From positions 1 through 64,000 of the forward strand of contig CACBDC010000001.1 of NCBI GenBank assembly GCA_902537845.1: DNA of 64,000 nucleotides, given 5' to 3'. Below, piece by piece: positions 1,018 to 39,170 of the stretch. Position numbers and translations under genes: made by a program. The DNA is from an uncultured Pelagibacteraceae bacterium. GTDB lineage: Bacteria > Pseudomonadota > Alphaproteobacteria > Pelagibacterales > Pelagibacteraceae. The notes beneath the pieces are model-generated. The model searched no databases and had not been told where the DNA came from. It saw only the letters and a list, made by a program, of their open reading frames with translations. Positions within the stretch are counted from its first letter, which is position 1; each line of letters starts with the position of its first letter.

Positions 1018-1027
1018 ATTCTGTTTA

Positions 1028-1103
1028 GGGACGTTCAGTTACCTGGTGCCGTGAACCTTTTAACATTATTCCTTATTATACGCCATTTGCAATTTTATTT
1101 ACA
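1028..1103 (-). repeat. Degenerate tmRNA 3'-end fragment / att-like repeat A
   Basis: gggacgttcagttacctggtgcc...ccatttgcaatt; aligns with the tmRNA 3' region at 15461-15550 and closely with the copy at 5185-5252. Confidence 0.7.
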
Positions 1104-1155
1104 AAAAGATAAACTAACGTTACTTCATTTTTATCTATAAAATTAATAAAATTGT

Positions 1156-2184
1156 ATGAAAAAAATTGCAATAACTGGTGGTTCGGGTTTTTTCGGAGAG
1201 TATCTTATTAATTTCATGCTCTCAAAAAATATTGAGTGTTTATCTATTGATATTAATTCTCCTGACAAAAAAAATAATAAATTCTCATTTGAAAAAATAA
1301 ACATATGCGATCAAGAAAAACTATCAAATAGCCTGAATGATATTGACGCGATATTTCATTGTGTCGCGAACGTCCCTCTTGCAAAAAATAAAAAACTTTT
1401 TAAACATACAAATATTTTAGGAACAAAATCTATACTGGATGCAAGTTTAAGAAAAAAAATAAAAAAAGTAATAATACTCTCTTCAAGTGCAGTTTATGGA
1501 ATTCCAAAAAAAAATCCTGTAAATGAACAAAGTGAGACAATCCCTAAGGAAGATTACGGAAAAAGTAAACTTGAAGCTGAACAAGTATGTTATGATCCAA
1601 AGTATAAAGACTTAGATATTACAATAATTCGTCCCAGAACGATTATGGGACACGGACGTTTGGGTATATTTGAAATTTTATTTGACTGGGTAAGCAAAGG
1701 ATACAATGTTCCAGTTTTAAATAATGGAAAAAATATCTATCAGTTTATTCACGCAAAAGATTTGGCTAAAGCTTGTTTCATTTCCTCAAAATTAGAGGGT
1801 ATAAACTTGATTAATTGTGGTACAGAAAAATATTCAAGCATGTATGAGACTTTAAGTAATTTATGTAAATACGCAAACACAGGATCAAAAATTAAATCTT
1901 TACCTTTGGGGTTGATAGAGCCAATCATGAATGTATCTTCTTTTTTAAAGCTTTCACCTCTTGCTCCTTATCATTCATTAATGTATGGCAGATCGCTTTA
2001 TTTCGATAATAAAAAAATTAACGCTTTAGGATGGACATCAGAGTATTCCAACGATCAGATGTTTAGAGAAAGCTATGACTGGTATTTGGCTAATAAAGAT
2101 AATATAGGTTTACAAAATCAAAAAAGTGCTCATAAAAACAAAGTTCAGCAAAAAATTTTAAAACTTCTAAGATATTTATTATAA
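1156..2184 (+). CDS. NAD-dependent epimerase/dehydratase (extended SDR)
   Basis: ITGGSGFFGEYL Rossmann motif, SSSAVYG...YGKSKLEAE active-site pattern. Confidence 0.85.
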   Translation: MKKIAITGGSGFFGEYLINFMLSKNIECLSIDINSPDKKNNKFSFEKINICDQEKLSNSLNDIDAIFHCVANVPLAKNKKLFKHTNILGTKSILDASLRKKIKKVIILSSSAVYGIPKKNPVNEQSETIPKEDYGKSKLEAEQVCYDPKYKDLDITIIRPRTIMGHGRLGIFEILFDWVSKGYNVPVLNNGKNIYQFIHAKDLAKACFISSKLEGINLINCGTEKYSSMYETLSNLCKYANTGSKIKSLPLGLIEPIMNVSSFLKLSPLAPYHSLMYGRSLYFDNKKINALGWTSEYSNDQMFRESYDWYLANKDNIGLQNQKSAHKNKVQQKILKLLRYLL

Positions 2185-2186
2185 AA

Positions 2187-3962
2187 ATGAAAACAGTAAT
2201 TCAAAATCTTGTTTTTTTTATAAACGACATTACAGATATAATAGTTAAAAAAGAGGGAATAAAAGATTTTAGTCGATCAAACAGAAGACAACTTTTAGCT
2301 CATTTTCTAAAGAGCCAGCAATTAATTAAATTTTTTTTTCTTGTTCATTTATTTTTTCTTAATATTTTCTCATTTTTAATAGGTTTAAAATCACTCAAAA
2401 GCCTCTCTTTGTCAAAAAGAGAAAAGTTATATAAAATATTTGAAAAGAGAAATTTAGTAAGATTTAAAAAAATTACAGAATTAATTACTGCTCTTGTTTT
2501 TTTAATAAAATACAATAATGAAAAATTAATAAATCAAAAGAAAAGCTCCTCTTTCCAAAACAAAAAATATTATGATAATATTGTGATAGGCTCTGGCCCG
2601 AGTGGAGCTGTTACAGTCAATAATTTGCTGAAAAATAAGTTTCAAACTTTATTAATCGAGCAAGGGTATAAAACATCAATTCCAAAAACTAAACATCCTG
2701 CAACAGAATTTTATCATAAGTGGAAATATTCAGGATTATCAGGAGCTGTAGGAAAATATGATTTACAATTTGCATCAGCTGAGTGTTATGGAGGAGGAAG
2801 CGAAATTAATAGTGGTCTATATCATGAAATTGACGAACTATTCATAAAAAAATTAATAAATAAAAATGATATTAAAAATTTAATTAAATCTAATGATGAA
2901 TGGAAGTCAATTACTTCATCAGATAATTTTGAAGCTCTGAGTCAGAGGGATAAAAATTTGACTAATTATTTTACAGACGGCTCCAAAGTTTTGGGCTGGA
3001 AATACGAGAGTATTAAAAAATTTTTTAAAACCAATGGCAGCGCTTTAAAACAATCAATGACGTCTACTCTTTTGAAAGAAGCTGAGAGATCTGGTTTAGA
3101 ATTGTTATTGGGTCATAAGGTAAAAAAAATTTTGAGAGATAAAGATAAATGGAAAATAACCTTTTCTAAAAGCCCAATGGAGATATCGTGTAAAAACCTT
3201 TTTTTGTGTTGTGGCACCCCATACACTTTGAACTTATTAAAAAAAAGCGGAATAATGTCCTGGACATATAATGATAATTTTCATTTTCATCCAATGATTA
3301 AAATTGTTGCAAAATTTCCACTAAAGGTAAATCACAATATAAATAAAAATGTTATCTCAGCACAAATTACTCAATTTTATCCAAACTATCTTTTTGGGAA
3401 TGCCGCAAGTGATATTCAATTTTTAAAGATTAGTGCAATAGGCAATAAACTATTTAGCAAAGATGTCGATAAAAATTCTGAACACATGGCTATTTTACAT
3501 GCAACTTTCACTAATGGAAAATGTAATTTTATTAAAATCCCATTTATAGATGAGCCAATAATCACTTTTAAAATTAATAAAGAAGAGGCTCAAACAGTGA
3601 AAGAAGGTTTACTTAATTTAATTAAATTTGCTTTCAAATCAGGTGCTGAATATGTTTACATTTTAGACGATTCAAAAACAAAATTAGAGAGTTTTGATGA
3701 AGAAAAAATTAAAAATATTTTGAAAAAAATTAAGTTAAGTTTTTCAGCAGTTCACTTGCTTGGTGGAATAAATTTTGGTGAAAAAAAAGAAAATTTATTT
3801 GACTCATTTGGAGAGTGTAAAATTAATAAATTTAAAAACCTATTCGTAAATGACTCATCGCTTATCTCAGAAAATTTACTTAAAAATCCGCAAGGAGCAA
3901 TCATGAGTTTAGCTCAAAGAAATATTGATCATTTTATAAGGGAACAAAAGAATGATAAGTGA
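2187..3962 (+). CDS. GMC-type FAD-dependent oxidoreductase
   Basis: YDNIVIGSGPSGAVTVNNLL FAD-binding motif; C-terminal FVNDSSLI..NPQGAIMSLAQRN. Confidence 0.75.
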   Translation: MKTVIQNLVFFINDITDIIVKKEGIKDFSRSNRRQLLAHFLKSQQLIKFFFLVHLFFLNIFSFLIGLKSLKSLSLSKREKLYKIFEKRNLVRFKKITELITALVFLIKYNNEKLINQKKSSSFQNKKYYDNIVIGSGPSGAVTVNNLLKNKFQTLLIEQGYKTSIPKTKHPATEFYHKWKYSGLSGAVGKYDLQFASAECYGGGSEINSGLYHEIDELFIKKLINKNDIKNLIKSNDEWKSITSSDNFEALSQRDKNLTNYFTDGSKVLGWKYESIKKFFKTNGSALKQSMTSTLLKEAERSGLELLLGHKVKKILRDKDKWKITFSKSPMEISCKNLFLCCGTPYTLNLLKKSGIMSWTYNDNFHFHPMIKIVAKFPLKVNHNINKNVISAQITQFYPNYLFGNAASDIQFLKISAIGNKLFSKDVDKNSEHMAILHATFTNGKCNFIKIPFIDEPIITFKINKEEAQTVKEGLLNLIKFAFKSGAEYVYILDDSKTKLESFDEEKIKNILKKIKLSFSAVHLLGGINFGEKKENLFDSFGECKINKFKNLFVNDSSLISENLLKNPQGAIMSLAQRNIDHFIREQKNDK

Positions 3963-4827
3963 ATTAAAATATCTAAGATTTAGTCATATCTTTAAAAATT
4001 TTTTAATTCTAGCACCAATTTTGGGATCACAAGGTTTAGAAAGTGAGTTTAATTATTTCTTATTTATAAATGGATTAATTTCTTTTTCTCTTCTTACACT
4101 AAGTTGTTATTTAATAAATGATTATACTGATAAAAAAACTGATAAAAAAAATGTTTTAAAAAAGAAAAAATATTTAGCTTTGAGTAAAAAAAAGGTTTTT
4201 TTAATTCTTAGTTTATTAATATTTTTATTTATTATCCACGGATTATATTTTTCAATTCTAAACAATATATTTCTCTTTTGTTATTTTTTAAATTTTATTC
4301 TTTATAATTTCTACCTTAAAAAATTTAAGATTATTGACTTATTGATGCTGAATAATTTTTATATGATAAGAATTTTGTATGGAGCTAAGTTATTTGTTAT
4401 CGATATAACATTTGGTTTTTTGATATTCTTTTATTTTTTATTCCTAGGTTTATCAACTGCTAAACGTTTAATACAAGTTTCTTCAAATAAACTCAAAAAA
4501 AATAATGTTATTTCTCCTTATTACATTGGAGATAAAATAATCTTAAAAAAAAATATTTTGTTTTCTTTTTTTACCACTCTTATAATCCTAGTTCTTTTTA
4601 TTTTAAATATTCGAAATATTATTTCTCTTGAAGATAAAATTTTTTTACCTTCATTCTTAAATTTTACGGAAACATTAATTTTGTTTAGCTTCTATGCCAT
4701 ATGGATAATGCGTTGTTATTATTTAATTAGTAAAAATAGAATTAAAATAGATATTTATAAATATTACATTGAAGACAAATTTAGTTATCTTTTATTATTA
4801 ATATTTCTTTTAATTTTTTTTTCATAA
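3952..4827 (+). CDS. UbiA-family prenyltransferase (decaprenyl-phosphate phosphoribosyltransferase-like)
   Basis: multi-TM protein with CYLINDYTDKKTDKKN (NDxxDxxxD-type) motif. Confidence 0.7.
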   Translation: MISELKYLRFSHIFKNFLILAPILGSQGLESEFNYFLFINGLISFSLLTLSCYLINDYTDKKTDKKNVLKKKKYLALSKKKVFLILSLLIFLFIIHGLYFSILNNIFLFCYFLNFILYNFYLKKFKIIDLLMLNNFYMIRILYGAKLFVIDITFGFLIFFYFLFLGLSTAKRLIQVSSNKLKKNNVISPYYIGDKIILKKNILFSFFTTLIILVLFILNIRNIISLEDKIFLPSFLNFTETLILFSFYAIWIMRCYYLISKNRIKIDIYKYYIEDKFSYLLLLIFLLIFFS

Positions 4828-4830
4828 TTC

Positions 4831-5172
4831 GTGAGTAAAATTAATTCTATTTTTGTTTATGGGACACTGCAAATCGGGAAACAACATGAGAATATTTTGA
4901 GAGAATTAGGGGGAAATTGGCAAAAAGGATATGTATACGGTAAGTTGACTAATGTAAGTGCTGGTCCTGATTATGGTTACCCTTGCCTTAAATTAGATAA
5001 AAAAGGTGTAAAGATATACGGCATGGTTTTTGACTCAAAAAATTTAGAGAAAAAAATTGAAGAAATCGATAAGTTTGAAGGAAAAAATTACAAGAGAGTA
5101 GTTACAGAAATATATTTGGAAAATGGTTCAAAAATTCAAGCCTATTTGTATGAACTAAAGAAAAAAAATTGA
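4831..5172 (+). CDS. gamma-glutamylcyclotransferase-like (AIG2/GGCT) protein, GTG start
   Basis: IFVYGTLQIGKQHENIL motif; DKFEGKNYKRVVTEI. Confidence 0.8.
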   Translation: MSKINSIFVYGTLQIGKQHENILRELGGNWQKGYVYGKLTNVSAGPDYGYPCLKLDKKGVKIYGMVFDSKNLEKKIEEIDKFEGKNYKRVVTEIYLENGSKIQAYLYELKKKN

Positions 5173-5184
5173 AAAGATTAGAAA

Positions 5185-5252
5185 GGGGCGTTCTGTTGCC
5201 AGATACCCGGACTTTGTAACATTATTCCTTATTATCTACCATTTGCAATTGT
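5185..5252 (-). repeat. tmRNA 3'-end fragment / att-like repeat B
   Basis: ggggcgttctgttgccagatacccggactttgtaac...ccatttgcaatt; core nearly identical to the tmRNA 3' end. Confidence 0.8.
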
Positions 5253-5320
5253 TTAAAATCTAAAATTTTGATGAAAATTTCGGCAGAGGATCGGTAAGAT
5301 TTATGCTAGTTTCTTGGACT

Positions 5321-6418
5321 ATGAAAAAACTTTTAGGAATTGTAGTGTTAGGTTTGTTACTTACAAACTGTACTGTTAAATATAATGTGGTCGGTAAGTA
5401 CGAGGAATTTAACGAAGTATTCATCGGCACTGTTAATAGTGATTTAATGACAGGTACTGCAGTTATAGAAGTCGAGACTGTTCCTTCAAAAATGAAATGT
5501 AATGGTAATTCTAGAATTACATTTATACCTGCCTCAAATTATTTTATTCCAGGATACTGCGCAGGTCAGAAAGGAGTGGCCACTCTAATGTGTTCGTTAA
5601 CAGGGAGAGTTGAAGGAACATTTACAGCAACTTCTTGCACCAAAGGTTATGGAACTGGTTATGATAAAAAGGGTAGGATGTTTGCTTTCACATTCGGACA
5701 TAAAGAAGAAGAAGCAAAAGTTGAAATTGCAAAATTAATGGAGCAATCAAAAAGTAAACCAAAACTTCCAATTTACGAGCCAGAGAAAGTTAGAAAGAAA
5801 AAAGGTTACAGCACAGGAACTGGTTTTTTTATTTCAAATGATGGTCATATGATTACAAATTATCACGTTATAAGAAATGCTAAATCTGTGAAGGTTTCAA
5901 TTGAAGGCAAAGAAATAGATGCAAAAGTAATCTCTCAAGATAAAGCAAATGATATAGCGATAATTAAAGTTGATACTCCAGTTAAAAATTCAATACCAAT
6001 AATTAAATCAAATAAAACTGATGTTGGAGAAGAGGTATTTACTTTAGGATATCCATTAGTGGACGTGCAAGGAAAAGAACTTAAAGCTACTTTTGGTCGA
6101 GTTAATGCAATGTCAGGTTTACAAGATGATATTAGACTAATGCAAGTTGATGTTCCAATCCAACCAGGTAATTCTGGTGGTCCACTTATAAATGCTAAAG
6201 GGGAAGTTATTGGAATCGTTACTGCAACTTTAGACTCTATAGTTACATTGTATAAAAAAGGTGTCCTACCTCAAAACGTTAACTTTGCAGTTAAATCTGA
6301 TTACGCTTTTCCAATTATTAGCAATATTACCTCTGAAGGAAAATCAGGTAGCAAAAAAGATTTCTCCGAGTGGGTTAAAAAATATAGAGATAGCGTAAAA
6401 ATGGTTATTGCTAGATAA
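5321..6418 (+). CDS. trypsin-like (S1C/HtrA-type) serine protease lipoprotein
   Basis: MKKLLGIVVLGLLLTNC lipobox; GTGFFISNDGHMITNYHVI, NDIAIIKVD, QPGNSGGPL triad. ORF-track start is 5303; 5321 fits the signal peptide better. Confidence 0.85.
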   Translation: MKKLLGIVVLGLLLTNCTVKYNVVGKYEEFNEVFIGTVNSDLMTGTAVIEVETVPSKMKCNGNSRITFIPASNYFIPGYCAGQKGVATLMCSLTGRVEGTFTATSCTKGYGTGYDKKGRMFAFTFGHKEEEAKVEIAKLMEQSKSKPKLPIYEPEKVRKKKGYSTGTGFFISNDGHMITNYHVIRNAKSVKVSIEGKEIDAKVISQDKANDIAIIKVDTPVKNSIPIIKSNKTDVGEEVFTLGYPLVDVQGKELKATFGRVNAMSGLQDDIRLMQVDVPIQPGNSGGPLINAKGEVIGIVTATLDSIVTLYKKGVLPQNVNFAVKSDYAFPIISNITSEGKSGSKKDFSEWVKKYRDSVKMVIAR

Positions 6419-6431
6419 ATCTTAAAATTGA

Positions 6432-6794
6432 GTGTACGAATTATTTGCAAATCTTACTTTAATTGTACATTTAATTTTTATTTTATTTGTTATTTTTGGT
6501 GGATTGCTTTTTTTTATTTTTTCAAAAATCATCTATATTCACCTCCCAGCATTATTATGGGGAATTTATATAGAACTAACTAATGCTGTTTGTCCACTAA
6601 CTTATCTCGAAAATTGGTTTTTATATAAAGGAGAGTTAACAACCTATTCTAATGATTTTATTAATAACTATTTTTTTCCAATAATCTATCCTGAGGGCTT
6701 AACTAATGAAATTCAAATATATCTTGGTATATTGCTTATAGTTATTAATATTTTAATTTACGGATTTATTTTTAAAAATTTTAAGAAAAAATAA
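6432..6794 (+). CDS. DUF2784-like membrane protein
   Basis: hydrophobic 120 aa with CPLTYLENWF motif; GTG start. Confidence 0.65.
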   Translation: MYELFANLTLIVHLIFILFVIFGGLLFFIFSKIIYIHLPALLWGIYIELTNAVCPLTYLENWFLYKGELTTYSNDFINNYFFPIIYPEGLTNEIQIYLGILLIVINILIYGFIFKNFKKK

Positions 6795-6815
6795 GGAGCG
6801 TTCTGTTGCCAGGTG
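6795..6815 (-). repeat. tmRNA 3'-end att-like repeat C
   Basis: ggagcgttctgttgccaggtg. Confidence 0.85.
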
Positions 6816-6839
6816 AATTATTTTTAAGTATATTTAATT

Positions 6840-7037
6840 ATGTTTTTTGGATGGCTTAAAGGTATATTAGCTAATTTCTTAATTTGGCTGGGATTAACAT
6901 GCATTGTTTATGGAATGTATTTATTTGGCGATGAAAGAAATGGAACAGTTTCACTAATAATTGGAGTTATTGCTGGTACTGCTGGCTCATATTTTAGATA
7001 CGTTTCGAAACAAACTGTTAGAACTACAAAAAAATAA
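6840..7037 (+). CDS. small two-TM hypothetical membrane protein
   Basis: 65 aa ORF MFFGWLKGILANFLIWLG... Confidence 0.6.
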   Translation: MFFGWLKGILANFLIWLGLTCIVYGMYLFGDERNGTVSLIIGVIAGTAGSYFRYVSKQTVRTTKK

Positions 7038-7043
7038 ATTTTA

Positions 7044-7063
7044 GGGGCGTTCTGTTGCCCGGC
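7044..7063 (-). repeat. tmRNA 3'-end att-like repeat D
   Basis: ggggcgttctgttgcccggc. Confidence 0.8.
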
Positions 7064-7203
7064 AATAGATTAGAAATCGGCATATTTGCTCACTAATCAA
7101 AACTACTTCGTTGTAAACTTCGTTGAATGATATCTTTATTTTACCCAAAGTTTGCCTTTTGACTTCGTTGAAAAACTCTAAAAATTTAACTAGATTTATT
7201 CTA

Positions 7204-7578
7204 GTGAAAAAATTTTATATCATATTTATTTTATTTTTGTATTCAGAAATACTAGATGCAAAAACAACAAACTTAAGTTGCAAAGTTGATGGAAAAACTT
7301 ATTCAATAATTGTAGATGATGAAAACAAGAAAGTTACTTGGTTAGATAAAATAGTTGAAGCAAAGTTTTCTGCAACGACTGTAAATTTTATTGTTCATAA
7401 TGAGGAACACAAACCAGGGTCGGGTGTTTATGTAGTTATAAGTTATTCAATCAGCAGAGAAAATCTTGGAATTGTTCAAACAGTAAGTATGATTACGCCA
7501 ATATTAGATAGCAATGAAACTCTAGATAAAAAAACTGGAATTTGCGAAATTGGAAAAAAAATAGAGACCAAGTTTTAA
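7204..7578 (+). CDS. small exported hypothetical protein
   Basis: signal-like VKKFYIIFILFLYSEILDAK from GTG 7204 (ORF-track start 7123 is less likely). Confidence 0.55.
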   Translation: MKKFYIIFILFLYSEILDAKTTNLSCKVDGKTYSIIVDDENKKVTWLDKIVEAKFSATTVNFIVHNEEHKPGSGVYVVISYSISRENLGIVQTVSMITPILDSNETLDKKTGICEIGKKIETKF

Positions 7579-7580
7579 AG

Positions 7581-7633
7581 TGGCGTTCTGTTGCCAGGTG
7601 CCCTTAACCTTGTTTATTAAATCAGTTTAATAA
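7581..7633 (-). repeat. tmRNA 3'-end att-like repeat E
   Basis: tggcgttctgttgccaggtgcccttaacc followed by an AT-rich hairpin (ttattaaa..tttaataa) at the position of the tmRNA post-tag hairpin. Confidence 0.8.
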
Positions 7634-7875
7634 CCACAATTAATACGTCTACTTGTTTTACCATATAATGGAATAGCTAATTGACAATTTTGTTCAACTA
7701 TTCTTTTAACTAAAGTACTAGTCACCATAGTTAAACGAAGTTCATTTCTTACATCCTCAACATCATCTTTGGTAGCCCAATGATTTCCAGCCAAAACATT
7801 ATTTGGTGTCCATATTTTAATGTTTAAAGAAACTAAACAGATTGCAATAATTGTTAAAATTATTTTTAAGTACAT
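7627..7875 (-). CDS. small exported/membrane hypothetical protein
   Basis: 82 aa, N-terminal hydrophobic segment MYLKIILTIIAICLVSLNIKI. Confidence 0.5.
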   Translation of the reverse strand: MYLKIILTIIAICLVSLNIKIWTPNNVLAGNHWATKDDVEDVRNELRLTMVTSTLVKRIVEQNCQLAIPLYGKTSRRINCGY

Positions 7876-7890
7876 TTGCTCCTTTCATTA

Positions 7891-7911
7891 GGGGCGTTCT
7901 GTTGTCCGTCC
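7891..7911 (-). repeat. tmRNA 3'-end att-like repeat F (distal end of integrase element)
   Basis: ggggcgttctgttgtccgtcc. Confidence 0.75.
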
Positions 7912-7948
7912 CAATTCAACTTATAACAGAATATAACACTTTTTGAAT

Positions 7949-7971
7949 AGGTACATAGTAAGGTACATAGT
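7949..7971 (+). repeat. Putative integrase arm-type sites, left end (2 x AGGTACATAGT)
   Basis: AGGTACATAGTAAGGTACATAGT; same 11-mer occurs at the right end. Confidence 0.7.
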
Positions 7972-7978
7972 CTTTTGG

Positions 7979-9208
7979 TCATTTCTTTGTAATCACTTTT
8001 AAATTTTTAGTAGATTTCTTTCTTTCAGGAAATACTTGATTGTGAATTTCTAATAAATGGTCATCTGACAATACTGAATAATGTTGGTTAATCATTTGAG
8101 GACTATTATTAGAGTGAAGTGCCAGAACATTAGTATCTACACCTTTCTTTCTTCTACCAGTAATAAATGAGTGTCTATAAACATAGATTGGTCTTTTTCT
8201 GCCGTCTTCTAACTCATACAAACCTAATTCATTAGATAATCTTACAAAGTTCTTTCTTATTCTTTCAAATAACTTTTCTCTATTTTCTACTTTAGGAAAA
8301 AACAAGTAATCAAGTTCATTACAATTTTGGTGTCTGTTTATAATTCTAGGATAAACATCATCTCGCCACCAATCTGCTAATGTAAATGTATGTTCTTGTT
8401 TTTTAGTTTGTAATAATCTCATTTTAATTACAGGTTTATCGCTGTGTGGGTCGTTTATAAAACCAATATGATTTCTTCTTACTCTTAAAAGTTCTAAACC
8501 AGGTCTAGCGCCACTACTACTATCACAAGTAGATAAGTAGTCTGCTGTTTCGTCATAAAAATTATCTTCAGTAATTCGCCATTCATCTTTAAATCTATTT
8601 CTAATTTGTTTTCTTTCTTTAGGTTGATAACCAACTCTCTTAATACCTTTGCCTGTTAATCTAGGAAATTCTGGTACTTGGTCAAATGGTACTTTGTTAT
8701 TCTTTAATGCTTTATTCATTTGATTACTTAAAATGATTTTATAATTTCTTTGTGTCGCTACTGCTTTGCCTTGTTCATTTAAGTTGTAAAATATTTCTGT
8801 AATAGCGTCATCAACTTCAGATGGATTTGTATAATCAATTCTTTCTAAAATAGTTTTCATCTCATTATTGAATTGACCTTGTTCTTTTTTATTTCTTTGA
8901 GGATTTACAAGTTCTCTACTTTTGAAATAAGGTAATGCTATATCTTTGTAATAACTTCTCTCAACTTTTTTGATTTTATTTTTATTCTTCTCAATTTCTG
9001 ATTTGAAATCAAAATTCTTAAATACTTTAATCGCTTCTTTTTCTGCTTGTCTTTCTTCAGAAACTTTTAGTGATTGAGTATGACAACCATTGTTGTTGTA
9101 TCCTTTACAAACCCAAAATCTTACATAGTAAAATTTACTTTTCTTTTCGTACTTGTAAATTTTCGCTGGTATTCTTTTGAGTTGTTTTTGTTTTTCTATC
9201 TTCGGCAT
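7979..9208 (-). CDS. tyrosine recombinase / phage-type integrase
   Basis: C-terminal RHSFITGRRKKGVDTNVLALHSNNSPQMINQHYSVL (HxxR...Y catalytic pattern); position beside att. Confidence 0.85.
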   Translation of the reverse strand: MPKIEKQKQLKRIPAKIYKYEKKSKFYYVRFWVCKGYNNNGCHTQSLKVSEERQAEKEAIKVFKNFDFKSEIEKNKNKIKKVERSYYKDIALPYFKSRELVNPQRNKKEQGQFNNEMKTILERIDYTNPSEVDDAITEIFYNLNEQGKAVATQRNYKIILSNQMNKALKNNKVPFDQVPEFPRLTGKGIKRVGYQPKERKQIRNRFKDEWRITEDNFYDETADYLSTCDSSSGARPGLELLRVRRNHIGFINDPHSDKPVIKMRLLQTKKQEHTFTLADWWRDDVYPRIINRHQNCNELDYLFFPKVENREKLFERIRKNFVRLSNELGLYELEDGRKRPIYVYRHSFITGRRKKGVDTNVLALHSNNSPQMINQHYSVLSDDHLLEIHNQVFPERKKSTKNLKVITKK

Positions 9209-9244
9209 TCTATTATTTCTTTTTCAAATTATGGTAGATGGATA

Positions 9245-9523
9245 TTAAACATAATCAATCTTAATACCTTGTTTGAGTAGGAATCTTTCTAAACTATTCA
9301 TCTGTTTGTCTTCAGTTTTTCTGATTTTATCAATTCTTCTCTGCCACCAATTGATTGTTGATTTAATCTTTCTCAATCGTGCTGTTGTCTTTTTACCTTT
9401 TTTGATTTTCTTTATTTCTTTTCTAACAATTGGAATCATACAATTTTTAAGTTCTGATAAAGTTCGTTCTTTTTCTGTTAGATAACTTTCTTTTTTTTGT
9501 ACAACTAATCTCATTGGTCTCAT
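9245..9523 (-). CDS. hypothetical basic protein
   Basis: 92 aa ORF in the operon-like minus-strand cluster of the element. Confidence 0.5.
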   Translation of the reverse strand: MRPMRLVVQKKESYLTEKERTLSELKNCMIPIVRKEIKKIKKGKKTTARLRKIKSTINWWQRRIDKIRKTEDKQMNSLERFLLKQGIKIDYV

Positions 9524-9574
9524 AATTTAGTCTGCCTTTCTTTTGTTTGTTTCATAGTGTAAGTCTTCATAGAT

Positions 9575-9904
9575 TTAATTGATTGAACCACTAAACTTTT
9601 CTTTCTCTCTAAAAAGTTGTTGTAAGTATTCATTCTGAAACATACGAGATAGTTTCTGAATTGTTTGTTTCATCATTGGTCTTCTATCGTCAATTGTTTC
9701 GTCATCATCTTCACTATCATTGTCATAATAGTCAGATAAAAAACCGATAGCGTTCATAAGAATTATCGGTGTTTCTTCCCATTCACCTTTTCTTAAGTCA
9801 ATTGTGTTTTCACATTCTGATAATGTACGACCTGTTTCTTCTTCAACAATGTCTTGTATATGTTCAGCGCCAAACCAATTTTTATATTCGTATTCTTTAC
9901 TCAT
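9575..9904 (-). CDS. hypothetical acidic protein
   Basis: 109 aa, stop overlaps/abuts neighbouring ORF (9904). Confidence 0.55.
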   Translation of the reverse strand: MSKEYEYKNWFGAEHIQDIVEEETGRTLSECENTIDLRKGEWEETPIILMNAIGFLSDYYDNDSEDDDETIDDRRPMMKQTIQKLSRMFQNEYLQQLFREKEKFSGSIN

Positions 9905-10812
9905 TACTTACCTCCTGAAATTAGATTTGAATTTACAACTGAAAGATTGTCTTTACTGAAGTCTTCTCTCATAAATGTACTTGAAAGATGTTTAACAACA
10001 ATTTGTTTCGCTCTTTCTATTAAGTCTTCTTTAGTTTCATCTAGTTCTGATGTTAAAGAAAGTTCAATATCTTTAGAAAGATTGAAGTTGATGTGAATAT
10101 CCTCAAGTTTTGAATATTCTTTTTCTTTTTCAGAGAATGCTTCAGTAATCTTAAATTCATCATCAATTTTATCAAAACTCATATAACTCACAAATTTATT
10201 AGTTTGAGTTTCGTCTAAACCAGCGTGAAAATTTAAGAGAGTTTCTTTAACTCTTTGTGGATTTCCCCAATTGTATGTTTGTTTTTCATTTTCAATATGA
10301 AAACTTTTATCAACAATAATAACATCTTGTATTATTTCTGTAGCGTAAGTTAAGAAAATATTAACTATTTCGCTTTCTGGATTGTTGTTAAGTTCTTGTA
10401 GTTTAAAAAACACATCTATTTGTTTCTTAAATTGAATTGGATTATTAGTTTCAGAACTTATTGGTAATAATGAATATTCAAATTTATCTTTCCAAATTGT
10501 ATCTTTAACAAGTCCAACACAATCTTTCGCCACACCTTCAAATGAATAACTATCATCTGTATTATCTCGTTTCCAACCTCTTAAATTAAAGTTGTTAATT
10601 CTGTGTGTGATTAAACAACTAACTCTATCGTTGTGTTTAGAGTATCTTGGTAATGGATTTTGGATATATTTTTCTAATTGTAAATTACATTCAATAACTT
10701 TCTTATTGAGTTTGAAGTAATCGCCAGAGATATTAAATCTTGTGAAAAATATTAAATCACAATTATGTACTTTATCATCTCTTTTTCTTTTCATTAACTT
10801 TTCAATTTTCAT
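9904..10812 (-). CDS. hypothetical protein (302 aa)
   Basis: long ORF in element operon; no family recognised. Confidence 0.6.
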   Translation of the reverse strand: MKIEKLMKRKRDDKVHNCDLIFFTRFNISGDYFKLNKKVIECNLQLEKYIQNPLPRYSKHNDRVSCLITHRINNFNLRGWKRDNTDDSYSFEGVAKDCVGLVKDTIWKDKFEYSLLPISSETNNPIQFKKQIDVFFKLQELNNNPESEIVNIFLTYATEIIQDVIIVDKSFHIENEKQTYNWGNPQRVKETLLNFHAGLDETQTNKFVSYMSFDKIDDEFKITEAFSEKEKEYSKLEDIHINFNLSKDIELSLTSELDETKEDLIERAKQIVVKHLSSTFMREDFSKDNLSVVNSNLISGGK

Positions 10813-10900
10813 AGTTATTTTTCCTTTCTGTGTTTAATTAACTATGAGTACATACTATCAGAAACAAACTTGAAAATACCTGACACAGATAAGGTGACCT

Positions 10901-10910
10901 CTTATTTGTC
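10901..10910 (-). promoter_or_regulatory. GACAAATAAG candidate operator copy
   Basis: cttatttgtc (+ strand); same word as at 11643-11652. Confidence 0.35.
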
Positions 10911-10924
10911 CTATCTAATTTTAG

Positions 10925-11608
10925 TTATGAAGTGTATTGACCAGGAAAAATACCTTTAGAAACATTTTCTAGTATTCTTTTAGCGTGAAGATTATATCTT
11001 AATATAATTCTTTGAATTACATAGTAGTCCATTGTTTTTCTATCTAAAAATTTGACCGTTCTTTCATCTTTCATCAATGCTCTGCTTTTGTGAGTTTTCA
11101 TAATCTTCAATCTTTTCTCTCTTAACAATTTAGCGACCTCTAATAATCGTTTATTTTGTTTTCTTAATTTAAATGTTTCTAGGTAAATCTGTAATTCTAA
11201 AGGTCTTAATCGTTCATTTGTTTTAGTAGATGTTTTTGTTTGTAAAATATCTCTTATTTTCTCAATAGCGTATTCAGTAGGTGTATCATTAGGTATTTCT
11301 ATAAAGGTTGAAGTGTTTGATTGTCTTGCTGTTCTTACTTCTTTTACTTGTTCAATCTCTTTTTCAAATAAACTACTTCCGATTTTAGACCACCATTGAT
11401 TAAATTTGTATTTTGATACTAGATTGAGTTTCCAATGAGTGTATTTTGACTTATCTACTTTAAAATCGTTAGGAAATTCCAAACAAGTCTTCAAATAATC
11501 ATAATGTAATCTGTATTTCTGAATACGACTTTCAATAAGTTTGTCGTTTTTAATTCTTTTGAAAATATCAGTTCTCGCCATAACAATTATAGAGAAACCT
11601 ACTCTCAA
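10925..11608 (-). CDS. hypothetical protein, possibly regulatory or replication-related
   Basis: 227 aa; KFNQWWSKIGSSLFE segment; likely start may be internal (MARTDIF...). Confidence 0.55.
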   Translation of the reverse strand: MRVGFSIIVMARTDIFKRIKNDKLIESRIQKYRLHYDYLKTCLEFPNDFKVDKSKYTHWKLNLVSKYKFNQWWSKIGSSLFEKEIEQVKEVRTARQSNTSTFIEIPNDTPTEYAIEKIRDILQTKTSTKTNERLRPLELQIYLETFKLRKQNKRLLEVAKLLREKRLKIMKTHKSRALMKDERTVKFLDRKTMDYYVIQRIILRYNLHAKRILENVSKGIFPGQYTS

Positions 11609-11609
11609 A

Positions 11610-11747
11610 ATGACAAATAATCAACAATCCTATGTGTGATATGACAAATAAGAATGGTTTTTATTTGTGAAATGGTTGATTACCGTCGGTTTCCTGTTAG
11701 CGTATTCTAATCAAGTTCTCGGTTAGAACAAAACGAAAGGAGTTAAA
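11610..11747. promoter_or_regulatory. Divergent control region with repeated ATGACAAATAA and inverted TAATCAAC/GTTGATTA
   Basis: ATGACAAATAA at 11610-11620 and 11641-11651; TAATCAAC 11618-11625 vs GTTGATTA 11675-11682; lies between divergent ORFs. Confidence 0.5.
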
Positions 11748-12488
11748 ATGACCGTTTATTTCTATGGAAGAAATAGTGATAGTGAGAGTTTTGAAAAAGG
11801 AAGTTCAATAGAAACTCAATTATCAAAGTGTAAATCATACGCCAACATCAAAGATTTAAAGATTGATGTTGAAATAACAGAACAAGTATCTGGAACGACA
11901 AATTTTGAGAGGCGTGAGAAAGGTAGTGAGTTGTTAAGTCTTTTAAAAAAAGGTGACCATATAATTTGTTCTCATTTAGATAGATTTAGTAGAAACACAT
12001 TAAACTTACTAACTCTTGTTGAAAAATTTAAAAAACAAAAAGTTAGTCTTCACTTTGTAGATATTGGAAGTGAGGTGACAGGTACAGATGCTATGGGTAG
12101 TGTGTTCTTTAAACTTCTATCTGTATTCGCTGAATTTTACGCCAAACAAGTTAGTGAAAAATCAAAAGCGACTAAACAGCGTATGATTAAAGAAAACAAA
12201 TACACTGGAGGATTTAGACCTAAATTTGGTTATGATGTAGATGACAATGGTTATCTAGTTCCTTGTGAGAAAGAACAATCAATTATTAGATTGATGAAGA
12301 TTTTAAGGAAGAAAGGTAAGTCATATAAAAAGATTTCTGAAGTAGTGACCAAATCTACTCGTAAGAAATTTCCTCAATCTTGGGTTTTCAATATTCTTAA
12401 AAGAGAGAATACGATTCCACCAAATGATAGTGTGTTAATTCACAACATTTGTAATACAGAACTTCAACCAAATATGTGTGATGTTTAA
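11748..12488 (+). CDS. serine recombinase (resolvase/invertase family)
   Basis: YFYGRNSDSESFEKGSSIETQLSKC, DHIICSHLDRFSRNTLNLL, GSVFFKLLSVFAEFYAKQVSEKSKA. Confidence 0.9.
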   Translation: MTVYFYGRNSDSESFEKGSSIETQLSKCKSYANIKDLKIDVEITEQVSGTTNFERREKGSELLSLLKKGDHIICSHLDRFSRNTLNLLTLVEKFKKQKVSLHFVDIGSEVTGTDAMGSVFFKLLSVFAEFYAKQVSEKSKATKQRMIKENKYTGGFRPKFGYDVDDNGYLVPCEKEQSIIRLMKILRKKGKSYKKISEVVTKSTRKKFPQSWVFNILKRENTIPPNDSVLIHNICNTELQPNMCDV

Positions 12489-12726
12489 GTTAATTAAAAT
12501 TACATTTATTGTTTTCTGTATTCTTACAACAACGGTAGCGTTTGGAAAATCTTCTCAATACTTTGAGAATACACTCGTACATATGTTTTCTTCCGAGTGT
12601 AATAAAAAGTGTAGAGAAGAAATCATCAAATCTGAAACTGACTTCGCTGTAATTTTATTATTAAAAGTAGTCAGTCAAAATCTTCAACAACAATTACTGA
12701 AGTTAGAAAGACAAGTTTATGATTAG
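12478..12726 (+). CDS. small exported hypothetical protein
   Basis: hydrophobic N-terminus; overlaps recombinase stop. Confidence 0.5.
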   Translation: MMFKLIKITFIVFCILTTTVAFGKSSQYFENTLVHMFSSECNKKCREEIIKSETDFAVILLLKVVSQNLQQQLLKLERQVYD

Positions 12727-12961
12727 AAAAATTGTATTCTTTATTCTTTTTACTACTTCAGTAATCGCCAATGAAGACCATTGTACTTACAGAACAGAAC
12801 AAGTTAAAGAAAATGGAAAAATAGTTAAAGTTATTGAGTACAAAACTTGTACTGAAACTGAAAATCTAAACAAACAAAATTTTCTTAAAACTTTCCTTAC
12901 TTCACCTGAATACGAAAATTCAGTCATCTTTGTAGTAATGGCGATTTTAGAAAACATTTAG
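12719..12961 (+). CDS. small exported Cys-containing hypothetical protein
   Basis: MIRKIVFFILFTTSVIANEDHC signal-like; overlaps the previous ORF. Confidence 0.5.
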   Translation: MIRKIVFFILFTTSVIANEDHCTYRTEQVKENGKIVKVIEYKTCTETENLNKQNFLKTFLTSPEYENSVIFVVMAILENI

Positions 12962-12974
12962 AAAGGAGGTAAAA

Positions 12975-13421
12975 ATGAAATCAATATTAGTTTTATTAGT
13001 TGGTGTAATGTTAGTTGGTTGTTCTCAAACTAATTACGCCAAAAAGAAAACTACAATCTCAAATATGAGTGAGTTTTTAAAGGTAAATGAAAGTGTTTGT
13101 TCTCAATTTAAATCTACTTCTAAAAAGATTTATGGTTGTGGAACAGCGACTTCAAAGGATTTTGAACTATCTAAATCAAAAAGTTTGTTAAATGCCAAAA
13201 TCCTCGTAAGTGATAGTTTATCTAATTCTTTAATTAAATCTGAAAATCAAAAAATTAAAGAAGATACAAAGAATGGTATTGTTAGAGAATATACATCTAA
13301 CGAAACTAATCAAATATTTGAAACTAATCTAAACAATTACAGAATTGTCTATGATAAGACTTTTGTCCATTCTGGAAAGTATCGTAGTTATGTTGTGATT
13401 GAATATATTTTAGAAAGTTAA
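12975..13421 (+). CDS. hypothetical lipoprotein
   Basis: MKSILVLLVGVMLVGC lipobox; AGGAGG RBS just upstream. Confidence 0.7.
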   Translation: MKSILVLLVGVMLVGCSQTNYAKKKTTISNMSEFLKVNESVCSQFKSTSKKIYGCGTATSKDFELSKSKSLLNAKILVSDSLSNSLIKSENQKIKEDTKNGIVREYTSNETNQIFETNLNNYRIVYDKTFVHSGKYRSYVVIEYILES

Positions 13422-13427
13422 AGAAGT

Positions 13428-13456
13428 AGAGTGGTGGCGAAAGCGACCACCACTCT
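13428..13456. terminator. Hairpin terminator, possibly bidirectional
   Basis: agagtggtggcgaaagcgaccaccactct inverted repeat directly after the lipoprotein stop. Confidence 0.65.
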
Positions 13457-13490
13457 TAATAACAAAATACTTAAAACATATTACTATTTA

Positions 13491-13664
13491 TCAAATACCG
13501 AGTTGTCGTTTAATAGAGTGTTCAATAACTGCCGACATTATCCAACCTTTTCTATTACACAAATCTTTAAATTGTTTTGATAAACTTTTATTGATTAAAT
13601 AATTTACTCTTACTTTTTCCACTTCTTCTTTTTTTATTTTTTCTGATTGTACTGACCAATTCAT
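13491..13664 (-). CDS. 57 aa ribbon-helix-helix-like DNA-binding protein (not in ORF track)
   Basis: MNWSVQSEKIKKEEVEKVRVNYLINKSLSKQFKDLCNRKGWIMSAVIEHSIKRQLGI*. Confidence 0.55.
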   Translation of the reverse strand: MNWSVQSEKIKKEEVEKVRVNYLINKSLSKQFKDLCNRKGWIMSAVIEHSIKRQLGI

Positions 13665-13725
13665 ATGGAGATTTCCTTTTCGTTTAAATGTTTTTATCTG
13701 AACCTAATATGTTGTCAGTATCTTG

Positions 13726-14112
13726 TTATTCTTTTACTTCGTACTTCAGTTTAATTTCATTAACTAAATCTGAAATAAACTTTCCAGTTTCTCTGATAGT
13801 ATAACTATCGCCATCTCTACCAGAAATCTTTTTAATAAAATCACTCGTAATATCTGTAAATTTGTAAAGACGATTTGCCTGTAGTAAATCCTCTAACTCA
13901 CTTCTCGCTTGTTCCACATTGTAGTGATTTTGTTGTTCTTTAAATTGTTTTGATTTCGCTATCGCTCTTATGTCATATAAACCACCAACATTGTGTTTAG
14001 ACATTTGTTCAATTTTCATATTATATTCTTTTTCTCTTTGTCGTTTCGCTTCAGCGTTCTCAATACCTTTTCTTCTCATCTGTTCTGCCGACATTCTTAT
14101 TAAATCTGTCAT
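13726..14112 (-). CDS. hypothetical protein
   Basis: 128 aa ORF in element. Confidence 0.5.
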   Translation of the reverse strand: MTDLIRMSAEQMRRKGIENAEAKRQREKEYNMKIEQMSKHNVGGLYDIRAIAKSKQFKEQQNHYNVEQARSELEDLLQANRLYKFTDITSDFIKKISGRDGDSYTIRETGKFISDLVNEIKLKYEVKE

Positions 14113-14121
14113 TGTTTTTCC

Positions 14122-14235
14122 TTATAGTGTTTCAACAATCAATTCTAAAATTTGAATAATCTGAAGTTGTCTTTTTTCAGATGACTTTTCTCTTTTAACT
14201 TGTTGTAGTAATTGTTTTATTTTTTGTGAGTTCAT
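14122..14235 (-). CDS. 37 aa small ORF
   Basis: MNSQKIKQLLQQVKREKSSEKRQLQIIQILELIVETL*; fits the gap in the minus-strand cluster. Confidence 0.35.
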   Translation of the reverse strand: MNSQKIKQLLQQVKREKSSEKRQLQIIQILELIVETL

Positions 14236-14243
14236 ACTTATAT

Positions 14244-14378
14244 TTATTCCTTTTCGTCTTTATCTTTTAATCTGTCTTCAAATTCTTCTTGTGTTTCATC
14301 ATCTAATTTATTGTTCCACGCCTTTACAATTTCTTGTGCTAGTTCTTTATTAGTTTTTATTTTCTCATCATTCGTCAT
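14244..14378 (-). CDS. 44 aa small acidic ORF
   Basis: MTNDEKIKTNKELAQEIVKAWNNKLDDETQEEFEDRLKDKDEKE*; overlaps the stop of 14368-14586. Confidence 0.4.
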   Translation of the reverse strand: MTNDEKIKTNKELAQEIVKAWNNKLDDETQEEFEDRLKDKDEKE

Positions 14379-14586
14379 CAAATAACCTCGCTCTGTTTCT
14401 GTCCTCATTTATGTGTGTCATAACTGATTGATTGTGTCCTGTTTGTTCAATAAATTTCATAACTCGTTTTGTTAATCTTTTCGCTCTTAAATTCTGACTA
14501 TGATTTGAGTTAGTATTTTTTATAACCCATTCACTTAATCTTAAAACTTCCGCCAGATAGAAGTCGCTCATTCTCATCGCCCCCAT
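14368..14586 (-). CDS. hypothetical protein
   Basis: 72 aa ORF in element. Confidence 0.45.
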   Translation of the reverse strand: MGAMRMSDFYLAEVLRLSEWVIKNTNSNHSQNLRAKRLTKRVMKFIEQTGHNQSVMTHINEDRNRARLFDDE

Positions 14587-15377
14587 TTTTCTCTCCTCAT
14601 CTTAAGTAGTTTGACTTCGTCAAACGAAACTTCGTTTCGTACCTATTGTTGAAACTCATTAGAAATATATTCTGACGAGATGTTTTTAGATGTACTTCAC
14701 CTATCCGAAATAGGTGAAATATTACACATCTGACGCTGACGCCTTTGAGTGTCTTTAATCTGAAAACTTACTCTCGTAAGATTACTCGGGTTGTCCGAAT
14801 TTAAGTTTTACATCAACTTCATACAACGGTACTTGTATTAGTAGAAACTGATTAAATAATCTCTACTTTACTCTTTCAGTTTTATTTTATTAAAGTGAGA
14901 CCTTAACTGCTTATCTCACTATCATTATAAAAAAATTTGATTGTCGTACCAATCTCAATTTGAATTACGAAACCACAACTTTTACATTGTTTCGTATAGT
15001 CGTTATTGTCCTATAAAACTTGATATGTAAATTTTGTTGAACCGATATATTGTTCTCTTTAATCAACTCAACATATGTCATTTTTAACTATTTCTAAAAA
15101 TGTACTTATCTTTAAATATTTATAAGTATTAAGTTTTTGACTTACGAAAAAAATATGACGATTAGCGTAAAACTTCTATCTGTCATATCTAATCTTCATT
15201 TCTTCACATAACTTCACATATATTCTAATTGTTCATTAGTCATAGATGTGTGTATTTTTAAGTAGTTAGTCTTTTGAGTACATTTACTCACAAAATTTTT
15301 TAGACCTCTCCAGCGTCTTCTAAATCAGTTATTTTAAATTAAAGAGATTACTTAAAATGTTCTAAATTTTTTAGTCT

Positions 15378-15411
15378 AGGTACATAGTCAGGTACATAGT
15401 CGGTACATAGT
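15378..15411 (+). repeat. Putative integrase arm-type sites, right end (3 x GGTACATAGT)
   Basis: AGGTACATAGTCAGGTACATAGTCGGTACATAGT; matches left-end repeats at 7949-7971. Confidence 0.7.
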
Positions 15412-15432
15412 AAAATATTTTTTGAAAAGTGA

Positions 15433-15457
15433 AGTGGTACAACGAATTGTACCACTC
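15433..15457 (-). terminator. Intrinsic terminator of tmRNA (element-supplied)
   Basis: agtggtacaa-cgaa-ttgtaccact perfect 10-bp stem; minus-strand loop UUCG, followed by an AT-rich tract. Confidence 0.65.
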
Positions 15458-15459
15458 CT

Positions 15460-15715
15460 AGAGCGTTCTGTTGCCAGGTGCCCCGGACCCCGTTACTTAA
15501 TTAACAAAGTTAATTAAGCTGCAAGTGCAAATTTTTGATTTGCAATTATAAATTAGCCCGTTACGTCGGAACCATCTCGTACGAAAGAATAGCCTTTAGA
15601 CATCCGTCGATCCTGATTCACCCCCATAAGTTGTAAATGGTGGAGGTGGTGGGTACTGCCCCCACGTCCGTAATGTTTATTACGAAATTCGTTTATCGTC
15701 ATAGTTGGAAAACCA
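15460..15715 (-). ncRNA. ssrA: tmRNA, circularly permuted two-piece (alphaproteobacterial type)
   Basis: Minus strand: GGACGUGGGGGCAGUACCCACCACCUCCACCA acceptor 3' piece, 12-nt spacer (15626-15637), then GGGGGUGAAUCAGGAUCGACGG 5' piece; acceptor strands pair GGGGGUG/CACCUCC; tag ANQKFALAA-stop at 15514-15543. Outer ends approximate. Confidence 0.9.
15461..15481 (-). repeat. att-like repeat G (resident tmRNA 3' end)
   Basis: gagcgttctgttgccaggtgc, continuous with the intact tmRNA. Confidence 0.85.
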
Positions 15716-15765
15716 ACACTATTAATATAAAACTCTTTTACAGAGATTCAATAAATTATTTCAAA

Positions 15766-39104: not shown

Positions 39105-39106
39105 CT

Positions 39107-39170
39107 TCTCCTTTTTAGTACTTCGGCGTATGCCAGGTGTACAATATGGTTCAAATACCCGGTTTAATTT
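39107..39170 (-). promoter_or_regulatory. SAM-V riboswitch
   Basis: AAUUAAACCGGGUAUUUGAACCAUAUUGUACACCUGGCAUACGCCGAAGUACUAAAAAGGAG; recognised by sequence and tandem context with SAM-II. Confidence 0.75.

Follow-up and report, generated by a model that had tools for sequence, protein, structure and literature searches.

The 64,000-nucleotide stretch of an uncultured Pelagibacteraceae genome that was analysed here (contig CACBDC010000001.1, positions 1 to 64,000; in the following, the window) raises the question of what kind of mobile element carries both a tyrosine integrase and a serine recombinase within 7.6 kb next to the transfer-messenger RNA (tmRNA) gene, and how this element relates to the short units that lie beside it. 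We propose that the 3' end of the tmRNA gene is the specific target of the 7.6-kb unit, an integrative element, and that the neighbouring small units are mostly non-autonomous relatives that are moved in trans, a reading to which we assign a probability of roughly 0.78. The window starts at the contig end, and the genomes that we compared are incomplete, species-level genomes.

A sequence-only reading of the window, made without database searches, had placed the element between two repeats, F and G. These repeats coincide with the following features.

15457..15755, minus strand: tmRNA gene (ssrA) of the permuted alphaproteobacterial type (Rfam RF01849, 219 bits, E 3e-62)
15457..15485, plus strand: attachment (att) site on the tmRNA side, with repeat G (15457-15477) and the core GCGTTCTGTTGCC at 15463-15475
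7888..7916, plus strand: distal att site of the element, with repeat F (7888-7908) and the core GCGTTCTGTTGTC at 7894-7906

The tmRNA gene is called at 15423-15733 by ARAGORN. The element is bounded by the 13-mer GCGTTCTGTTGYC at 7894 and 15463, and the right flank of its distal att site, CGTCCCAA, is also found at the ends of units in two other genomes, G363 and G041. Repeats F and G belong to a family of seven copies in the same orientation (1025, 5182, 6792, 7041, 7577, 7888 and 15457). Allowing up to two mismatches, the 13-mer occurs at seven places in the window compared to 0.73 expected; in the whole 901-kb assembly, all six exact copies of the core lie within this array and in a single orientation. 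What is conserved of the site is a linear core of about 28 bp together with arms; the site forms an imperfect palindrome (AAGGGGC...GCCCCTT) and is often closely preceded by a stop codon.

Different species show this site in different states. The tmRNA core of G035 lies 15 bp after ppdK with nothing in between, which is an empty site; G140 has a 754-bp unit between two cores at the same ppdK-tmRNA site, and G363 has an element of 9,413 bp there. The states, which we compare between species as found, change exactly at the core. With the copies of F and G confirmed and exact insertion at the core seen in relatives, the two repeats are recombination junctions, and we conclude that the 3' end of the tmRNA gene is the attachment site of the 7.6-kb element.

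Just inside the two att sites lie the integrase gene and short direct repeats.

7979..9208, minus strand: tyrosine integrase, 409 aa (invariant R, YxxR and Y in the family alignment; homologues match PF00589 and PF13102)
7950..7971, plus strand: two arm-type repeats GGTACATAGT (7950 and 7962), exact copies
15379..15411, plus strand: three arm-type repeats GGTACATAGT (15379, 15391 and 15402), exact copies

Taken alone, the 409-aa protein matched no model in scans of Pfam, PHROGs and NCBIfam, and a single-protein search over genome contigs, viral contigs and phages gave no match. The alignment of its family (28-36% identity) keeps R235 (in RPGxE), YxxR345 and a final Y377, and three homologues match PF00589 and the SAM-like domain PF13102 in the expected order with E about 1e-3. 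Based on these domain matches of the homologues and on the conserved catalytic residues, the open reading frame (ORF) encodes a tyrosine integrase, as had been proposed from the sequence. All five exact copies of GGTACATAGT in the 64 kb are found within about 85 bp of the two cores, and these direct repeats look like the layout of putative arm-type sites of the integrase. Their presence at both ends agrees with the earlier suggestion that the tyrosine enzyme fits the att sites at tmRNA. The G363 element has another arm repeat, AACTTCGTTGA, at both of its ends.

Profile searches detect the integrase family in 10 of the 397 genomes searched within the bacterial family, in several cases as fragments only. 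Four further elements, in genomes of other genera (G059, G208, G045 and G363), are intact over the shared genes, and the 9.4-kb element of G363 lies at tmRNA like that of the window. Each of the four encodes a tyrosine integrase, a resolvase-type serine recombinase of 225-246 aa and an adjoining divergent basic protein of 227-318 aa. In the window, the latter two are:

11748..12488, plus strand: resolvase-type serine recombinase, 246 aa (PF00239, 6e-29; invariant S10 in the family alignment)
10925..11608, minus strand: basic protein, 227 aa, divergent from the serine recombinase and kept in all five elements (alignment; L147 copy)

The serine recombinase had been recognised from the letters alone, and the PF00239 match bears this out. 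Searching for it yielded 4 of 197 genomes, and all of them have an integrase of the window family, one of which is very divergent (G149). Since the serine recombinase is accompanied by such an integrase in all of these genomes, the pairing of the two recombinases, which had been singled out as notable, is a conserved trait of the element family. The serine recombinase also matches the gamma-delta and Tn3 resolvases in the PDB, and its most likely role is to resolve multimers or to regulate the excised circular form. We also considered that it captures cargo at its own 3' end and rejected this, as it rested on a single duplication in region L069, of which nothing was seen in L068, L070 or the window. 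This duplication is a 51-nt stretch from the 3' part of the gene (3984-4034) that is repeated with 96% identity 1.9 kb downstream (5871-5921), with small exported ORFs between the two copies. In G149 (L150, 8953-11180), the divergent integrase adjoins tRNA-Leu(CAA), with a like serine recombinase across the tRNA gene.

The relatives include the single cells SCGC AAA028-C07 and AAA028-D10, which we take to be of freshwater origin, and a Pelagibacteraceae genome from Lake Baikal. The G363 element encodes a gp45-type sliding clamp (PF09116, 3e-7; phrog_223, 1.5e-41) and, in addition, a Rep-like protein of 157 aa, which has an 82% identical counterpart in G059 and matches Rep_1 weakly (0.0026). 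The window element yielded neither of the two, and there is no conserved ORF in its last 0.8 kb; the window copy may thus be reduced.

The larger finding, which the sequence-only reading had overlooked, is that the other repeats separate units that are cassettes of the same system. In the window, the array consists of the following units.

7577..7888, plus strand: cassette of 311 bp with one minus-strand ORF (82 aa), an example of the compact arm-less type
7041..7577, plus strand: cassette of 536 bp with one ORF (151 aa), its left end homologous to the end of the G363 element, with ACTTCGTTG arm repeats
6792..7041, plus strand: cassette of 249 bp with one ORF (65 aa)
5182..6792, plus strand: cassette unit of 1610 bp with a trypsin-like lipoprotein (371 aa; PF13365, 1e-28) and a DUF2784-like ORF
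1025..5182, plus strand: distal unit of 4157 bp, bounded by the most degenerate att copy

Such arrays are widespread. The core is found in 232 of 297 genomes of the family, and a reversed control pattern had no match in any genome listed; within the genus, two or more exact copies are present in about 71 of 151 genomes. About 80 regions were fetched, and the 67 with at least one unit give the unit statistics: they contain 161 units, mostly with one ORF, at a median length of 857 bp. The orientation of the exact cores is fixed relative to tmRNA whatever the strand of the ORF (195 in one orientation and 0 in the opposite one). Furthermore, mismatches in the core increase away from tmRNA, with a slope that was reached in 2 of 5000 within-locus permutations, and this fits new units entering next to tmRNA.

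When comparing genomes, we find that 13 unit families recur at differing ranks and with differing neighbours. Several cassettes are 94-99% identical between species compared to 78-83% for the chromosomal flank on the tmRNA side; for instance, a 272-bp unit has 99.3% identity against 78.1% in the flank, and a 350-bp unit 94-96% against about 83%. These identities indicate that the cassettes are horizontally shared between species. As cargo, they carry among others Type I and Type III restriction-modification, a PD-(D/E)XK nuclease, an iron/manganese superoxide dismutase, DUF2784, DUF805, a gamma-glutamyl cyclotransferase-like protein, a trypsin-like lipoprotein and many secreted proteins. Many plus-strand cassettes with unrelated proteins have the same leader DNA at their 5' ends, often with a near-identical signal-peptide start (MKKLLAIVVLGLLWSGNA-like), and secreted domains appear to be swapped behind this common leader.

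The ends of the cassettes connect them to the element. In many of them, a pair of short repeats lies some 75-110 bases in from one end and recurs close to the other end, and these arm words differ between cassettes (ATTACGAGT, ATCCCGTAC, GCCGACTC, ATTCCGAA, TGCGTC and others). Under a strict test, a word is common to both ends of the same unit in 37 of 124 units, compared to a mean of 4.1 and a maximum of 9 with permuted ends; shuffled sequence gave 0.2 units. Words that are matched within a unit and vary between units would be expected as traces of independent integrase specificities.

In G041, which belongs to another genus, a cassette of 1,251 bp matches the left end of the window element at 102 of 109 positions, among them the last codons of the integrase gene, int; its right end has GGTACATAGT repeats, and its cargo is a different one. 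The left end of the G363 element, with ACTTCGTTG repeats, is found instead in about ten cassettes, the one at 7041-7577 of the window among them. A search with the end of the window element found matches in 29 of 387 genomes, mostly short or partial ones, and most genomes with window-type ends have no detected integrase of the window family. The smallest form is a 149-bp unit in G230 that consists of core and arms only. We rejected the idea that the window integrase moves all cassettes: most cassettes have other end sequences (AGGTGCCC..., other repeats) than the window element (CGTCCCAA..., GGTACATAGT) and thus need other, mostly unseen integrases. Window-type ends were also found after the stop codon of another conserved gene in G360, G123, G387 and G158 (L154, L155, L156 and L157), at a degenerate core, GGCAGTTCTGTTG, with no tmRNA nearby; this location is probably a second recurrent integration site.

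We therefore propose the following mechanism. The tyrosine integrase would bind the GGTACATAGT arm sites inside both ends and recombine at the GCGTTCTGTTG core, and could insert its own element as well as matching mini-elements at tmRNA. An incoming element would restore the end of the tmRNA gene and displace the old end outward, such that rounds of tandem insertion would build the array. For the excised circle, the predicted attP junction is P-left GAGCGTTCTGTTG joined to TCCGTCCCAATTC. The small units would retain the att core together with arm repeats, which in many cases belong to another integrase, with one or a few cargo genes replacing int; as they lack int, they would need to be mobilised in trans, presumably by integrases of the window class. 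The units would also be transferred between cells. Of this picture, the anatomy, the site occupancy, the conserved gene set, the matching ends and the horizontal sharing are shown by the sequences.

More broadly, and with less confidence, we favour the view that SAR11 has a clade-wide, integron-like gene capture at tmRNA. Non-autonomous mini-elements, each with its own arm 'address', would be shuffled between species by diversified tyrosine integrases that share one core, and would ride on rare dual-recombinase elements.

Several observations weigh against the proposed mechanism. Neither excision nor circles nor recombination in vitro were observed. The window integrase itself scores only weakly against Pfam, and its single-sequence AlphaFold model is poor (pLDDT 39). 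Several members of the integrase family lie away from tmRNA, as no tmRNA was found in the fetched regions L068, L069 and L070. Whereas arrays are common, the integrase family was detected in only the 10 of 397 genomes, and for most cassettes we have no cognate integrase in hand. Most genomes of the genus have PF00589 proteins only of Xer size; XerC/D was considered as the engine and rejected, the tmRNA core being presumably not dif-like. The strict arm test is passed by only about 30% of the units. Lastly, there is a compact class with a single ORF that has the same direction as tmRNA and takes up nearly the whole unit, to which 26 of 40 minus-strand single-ORF units belong compared to 8 of 50 plus-strand ones. 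The compact minus-strand cassettes without arms (e.g. L101, L048 and L082, and 7577-7888 in the window) are not explained by our proposal. Expression by read-through from tmRNA, as in integrons, is a possible role of their layout.

The remaining part of the element contains the following features.

9245..9523, minus strand: basic ORF, 92 aa, no family match
9575..9904, minus strand: acidic ORF, 109 aa, no family match
9904..10812, minus strand: ORF of 302 aa, no family; only 18-20% identity to ORFs at the same position in L068 and L069
12478..13421, plus strand: three small exported/lipoprotein ORFs of 82, 80 and 148 aa, a trio kept in G363 (tblastn with L147: 31%, 39% and 33% identity)
13491..13664, minus strand: ribbon-helix-helix (RHH)/Arc-like ORF, 57 aa, weak (phrog_582, Arc-like, best 0.0061)
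13726..14112, minus strand: 128-aa protein, 73% identical to a protein of the G363 element
14368..14586, minus strand: ORF of 72 aa with a G363 homologue (34% over 61 aa, 3e-13)
14590..15378, no strand: stretch without conserved ORF, where G363 and G059 have an ORF of 240-268 aa and the 157-aa Rep-like ORF

Small exported ORFs downstream of the serine recombinase are common to G363, G059 and G208. The earlier call of exported or lipoprotein ORFs holds; the 148-aa ORF has a lipoprotein-like start, MKSILVLLVGVMLVGC. The call of an RHH-like protein stays weak at the Arc-like score given above. GACAAATAAG is repeated at 10901 (minus strand) and 11643 (plus strand) of the window, before two divergent transcription units, and a similar motif, GACAACTAAG, lies before three units in L069; this type of motif looks like a candidate operator common to the element family. 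Outside the element, the window has a SAM-V riboswitch at 39105-39169 on the minus strand (RF01826, 70.7 bits).

Scans of the element ORFs against Pfam, PHROGs and NCBIfam revealed no family of capsid, portal, terminase or tail proteins, in line with what had been read from the sequence. With no structural or packaging genes among the scanned ORFs, the element does not fit a prophage. The same scans gave no relaxase match among the ORFs of the window element.

An element that is small, has an integrase and lacks virion genes could be a phage satellite or tycheposon, as the sequence-only reading had proposed. It would be excised upon phage infection, replicated by the Rep-like protein together with a phage clamp, and packaged by the helper. 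The clamp and the weak Rep_1 match of the G363 relative fit such a lifestyle; however, the clamp was not found in the window element, and scans of the element ORFs found no packaging, capsid-remodelling, AlpA or primase gene. Furthermore, the integrase, the Rep-like protein and the 128-aa protein have no relative among 2.9 million viral contigs (IMG/VR), nor do the integrase and the Rep-like protein in INPHARED, although such absence is weak evidence. Tycheposons are tyrosine recombinase elements at the 3' end of tRNA genes that carry cargo together with replication helicase or primase genes. They are known as elements at tRNA sites of Prochlorococcus, whereas the window element lies at tmRNA and its ORF scans revealed neither a helicase nor a primase. 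Tycheposons and phage-inducible chromosomal minimalist islands (PICMI) resemble it as small marine integrative elements with an integrase and without virion genes (PMC10803314); the PICMI hallmarks (alpA, primase, fis site) were not found in the window element. Similarly, the Pfam, PHROGs and NCBIfam scans detected no hallmark gene of phage satellites such as PICI, P4-like elements, PICMI and PLE (alpA/stl regulator, primase/rep, packaging or capsid-size genes). We thus consider a satellite or tycheposon unlikely, though it is the best of the alternatives.

As a separate observation, a tmRNA with the tag ANDDMVFALAA is encoded on the IMG/VR contigs L042, L044 and L046, of which the last belongs to a phage contig of 38.6 kb, and its sequence contains AGCGTTCTGTTGCCAGG, an exact copy of the att core. 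Cassettes could integrate into such a phage-borne tmRNA and thus have a vehicle.

Still less probable is that successive full islands at tmRNA decayed in place to remnants like cis-mobilizable elements (CIME), and that homologous recombination of the region is the only way in which the cassettes spread. Elements that accrete in tandem and lose int are known among integrative and conjugative elements (ICE), integrative and mobilizable elements (IME) and CIME (PMC5704250), the decay of the core increases with distance from tmRNA, and G294 has a truncated int at its tmRNA site. However, single cassettes of 94-99% identity at different ranks, with different neighbours and in different species would need exchange at cores of about 28 bp, and many cassettes have the same compact ends with unrelated cargo. 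Finally, we rejected the reading that the repeats are no recombination sites and that genes near tmRNA are followed by copies of a terminator or processing signal, which the palindrome and the preceding stop codons might suggest: the orientation is fixed at 195:0 whatever the ORF strand, insertion boundaries coincide exactly with the repeat in empty and occupied sites, and the exact copies in this assembly are confined to the array.

Among known systems, the ssrA islands of Dehalococcoides are the nearest described one. Like the units of the SAR11 array, these are tandem islands at tmRNA that are bounded by copies of its 3' end, and they lie downstream of the gene; they have repeats of 19-20 bp, occur with or without an integration module with two recombinases, and hold a large part of the strain-specific genes (McMurdie 2009, 2011; PMC2764846, PMC3146451). 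Their kilobase-long islands use a CcrB-like large serine integrase, DsiB (about 540 aa), and a second serine recombinase, DsiA (PMC3146451), whereas the window element has a tyrosine integrase with arm sites and a resolvase-type enzyme of 246 aa, and the units of the array are mostly 0.2-2 kb with one gene.

The accretion of CIME and IME (PMC5704250) is similar in that att-bounded elements without int are stacked at one gene by site-specific integration. The window element is IME-like, with its own tyrosine integrase (R..YxxR..Y), att repeats of the target gene and an empty site in the relative G035. The 1,251-bp cassette of G041 corresponds to a CIME, as it has lost int and can be derived from an autonomous relative. 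In contrast to CIME, the SAR11 units without int are miniature, compact and shared between species, with arm repeats matched at both ends. Additive flexible islands and small cassettes marked by repeats of tRNA genes have been described in the streamlined genomes of Methylophilaceae (20-bp repeats; PMC10872708) and Actinomarinales (PMC7771536); the SAR11 array differs by its tmRNA site and by having a cognate integrase, arm sites and matched ends identified. As in mobile integrons, mostly single-gene cassettes in one orientation are reordered between strains at one fixed site; however, the SAR11 array has a short core plus arm repeats instead of attC, and no IntI was found. Hypervariable regions of SAR11 had been checked earlier for attC, and none was found (PMC2217521). 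Our search of the open literature turned up no account of the SAR11 tmRNA array.

The gain and loss of accessory genes in SAR11, which are among the most abundant bacteria of the ocean and are regarded as streamlined, still calls for an explanation. Arrays of tiny cassettes are widespread at the tmRNA site, and the window element is related to them as one of the rare forms that carry an integrase. A tmRNA cassette system with integrases, arm sites, empty sites and cargo makes the question of accessory genes directly testable, and a short sequence can serve as a marker to find the mobile gene pool in any SAR11 genome. In addition, the arm sites, which are matched but diverging, form a natural data set on how integrase specificity evolves. 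If our reading is true, these abundant and streamlined bacteria would have a previously overlooked route for swapping genes.

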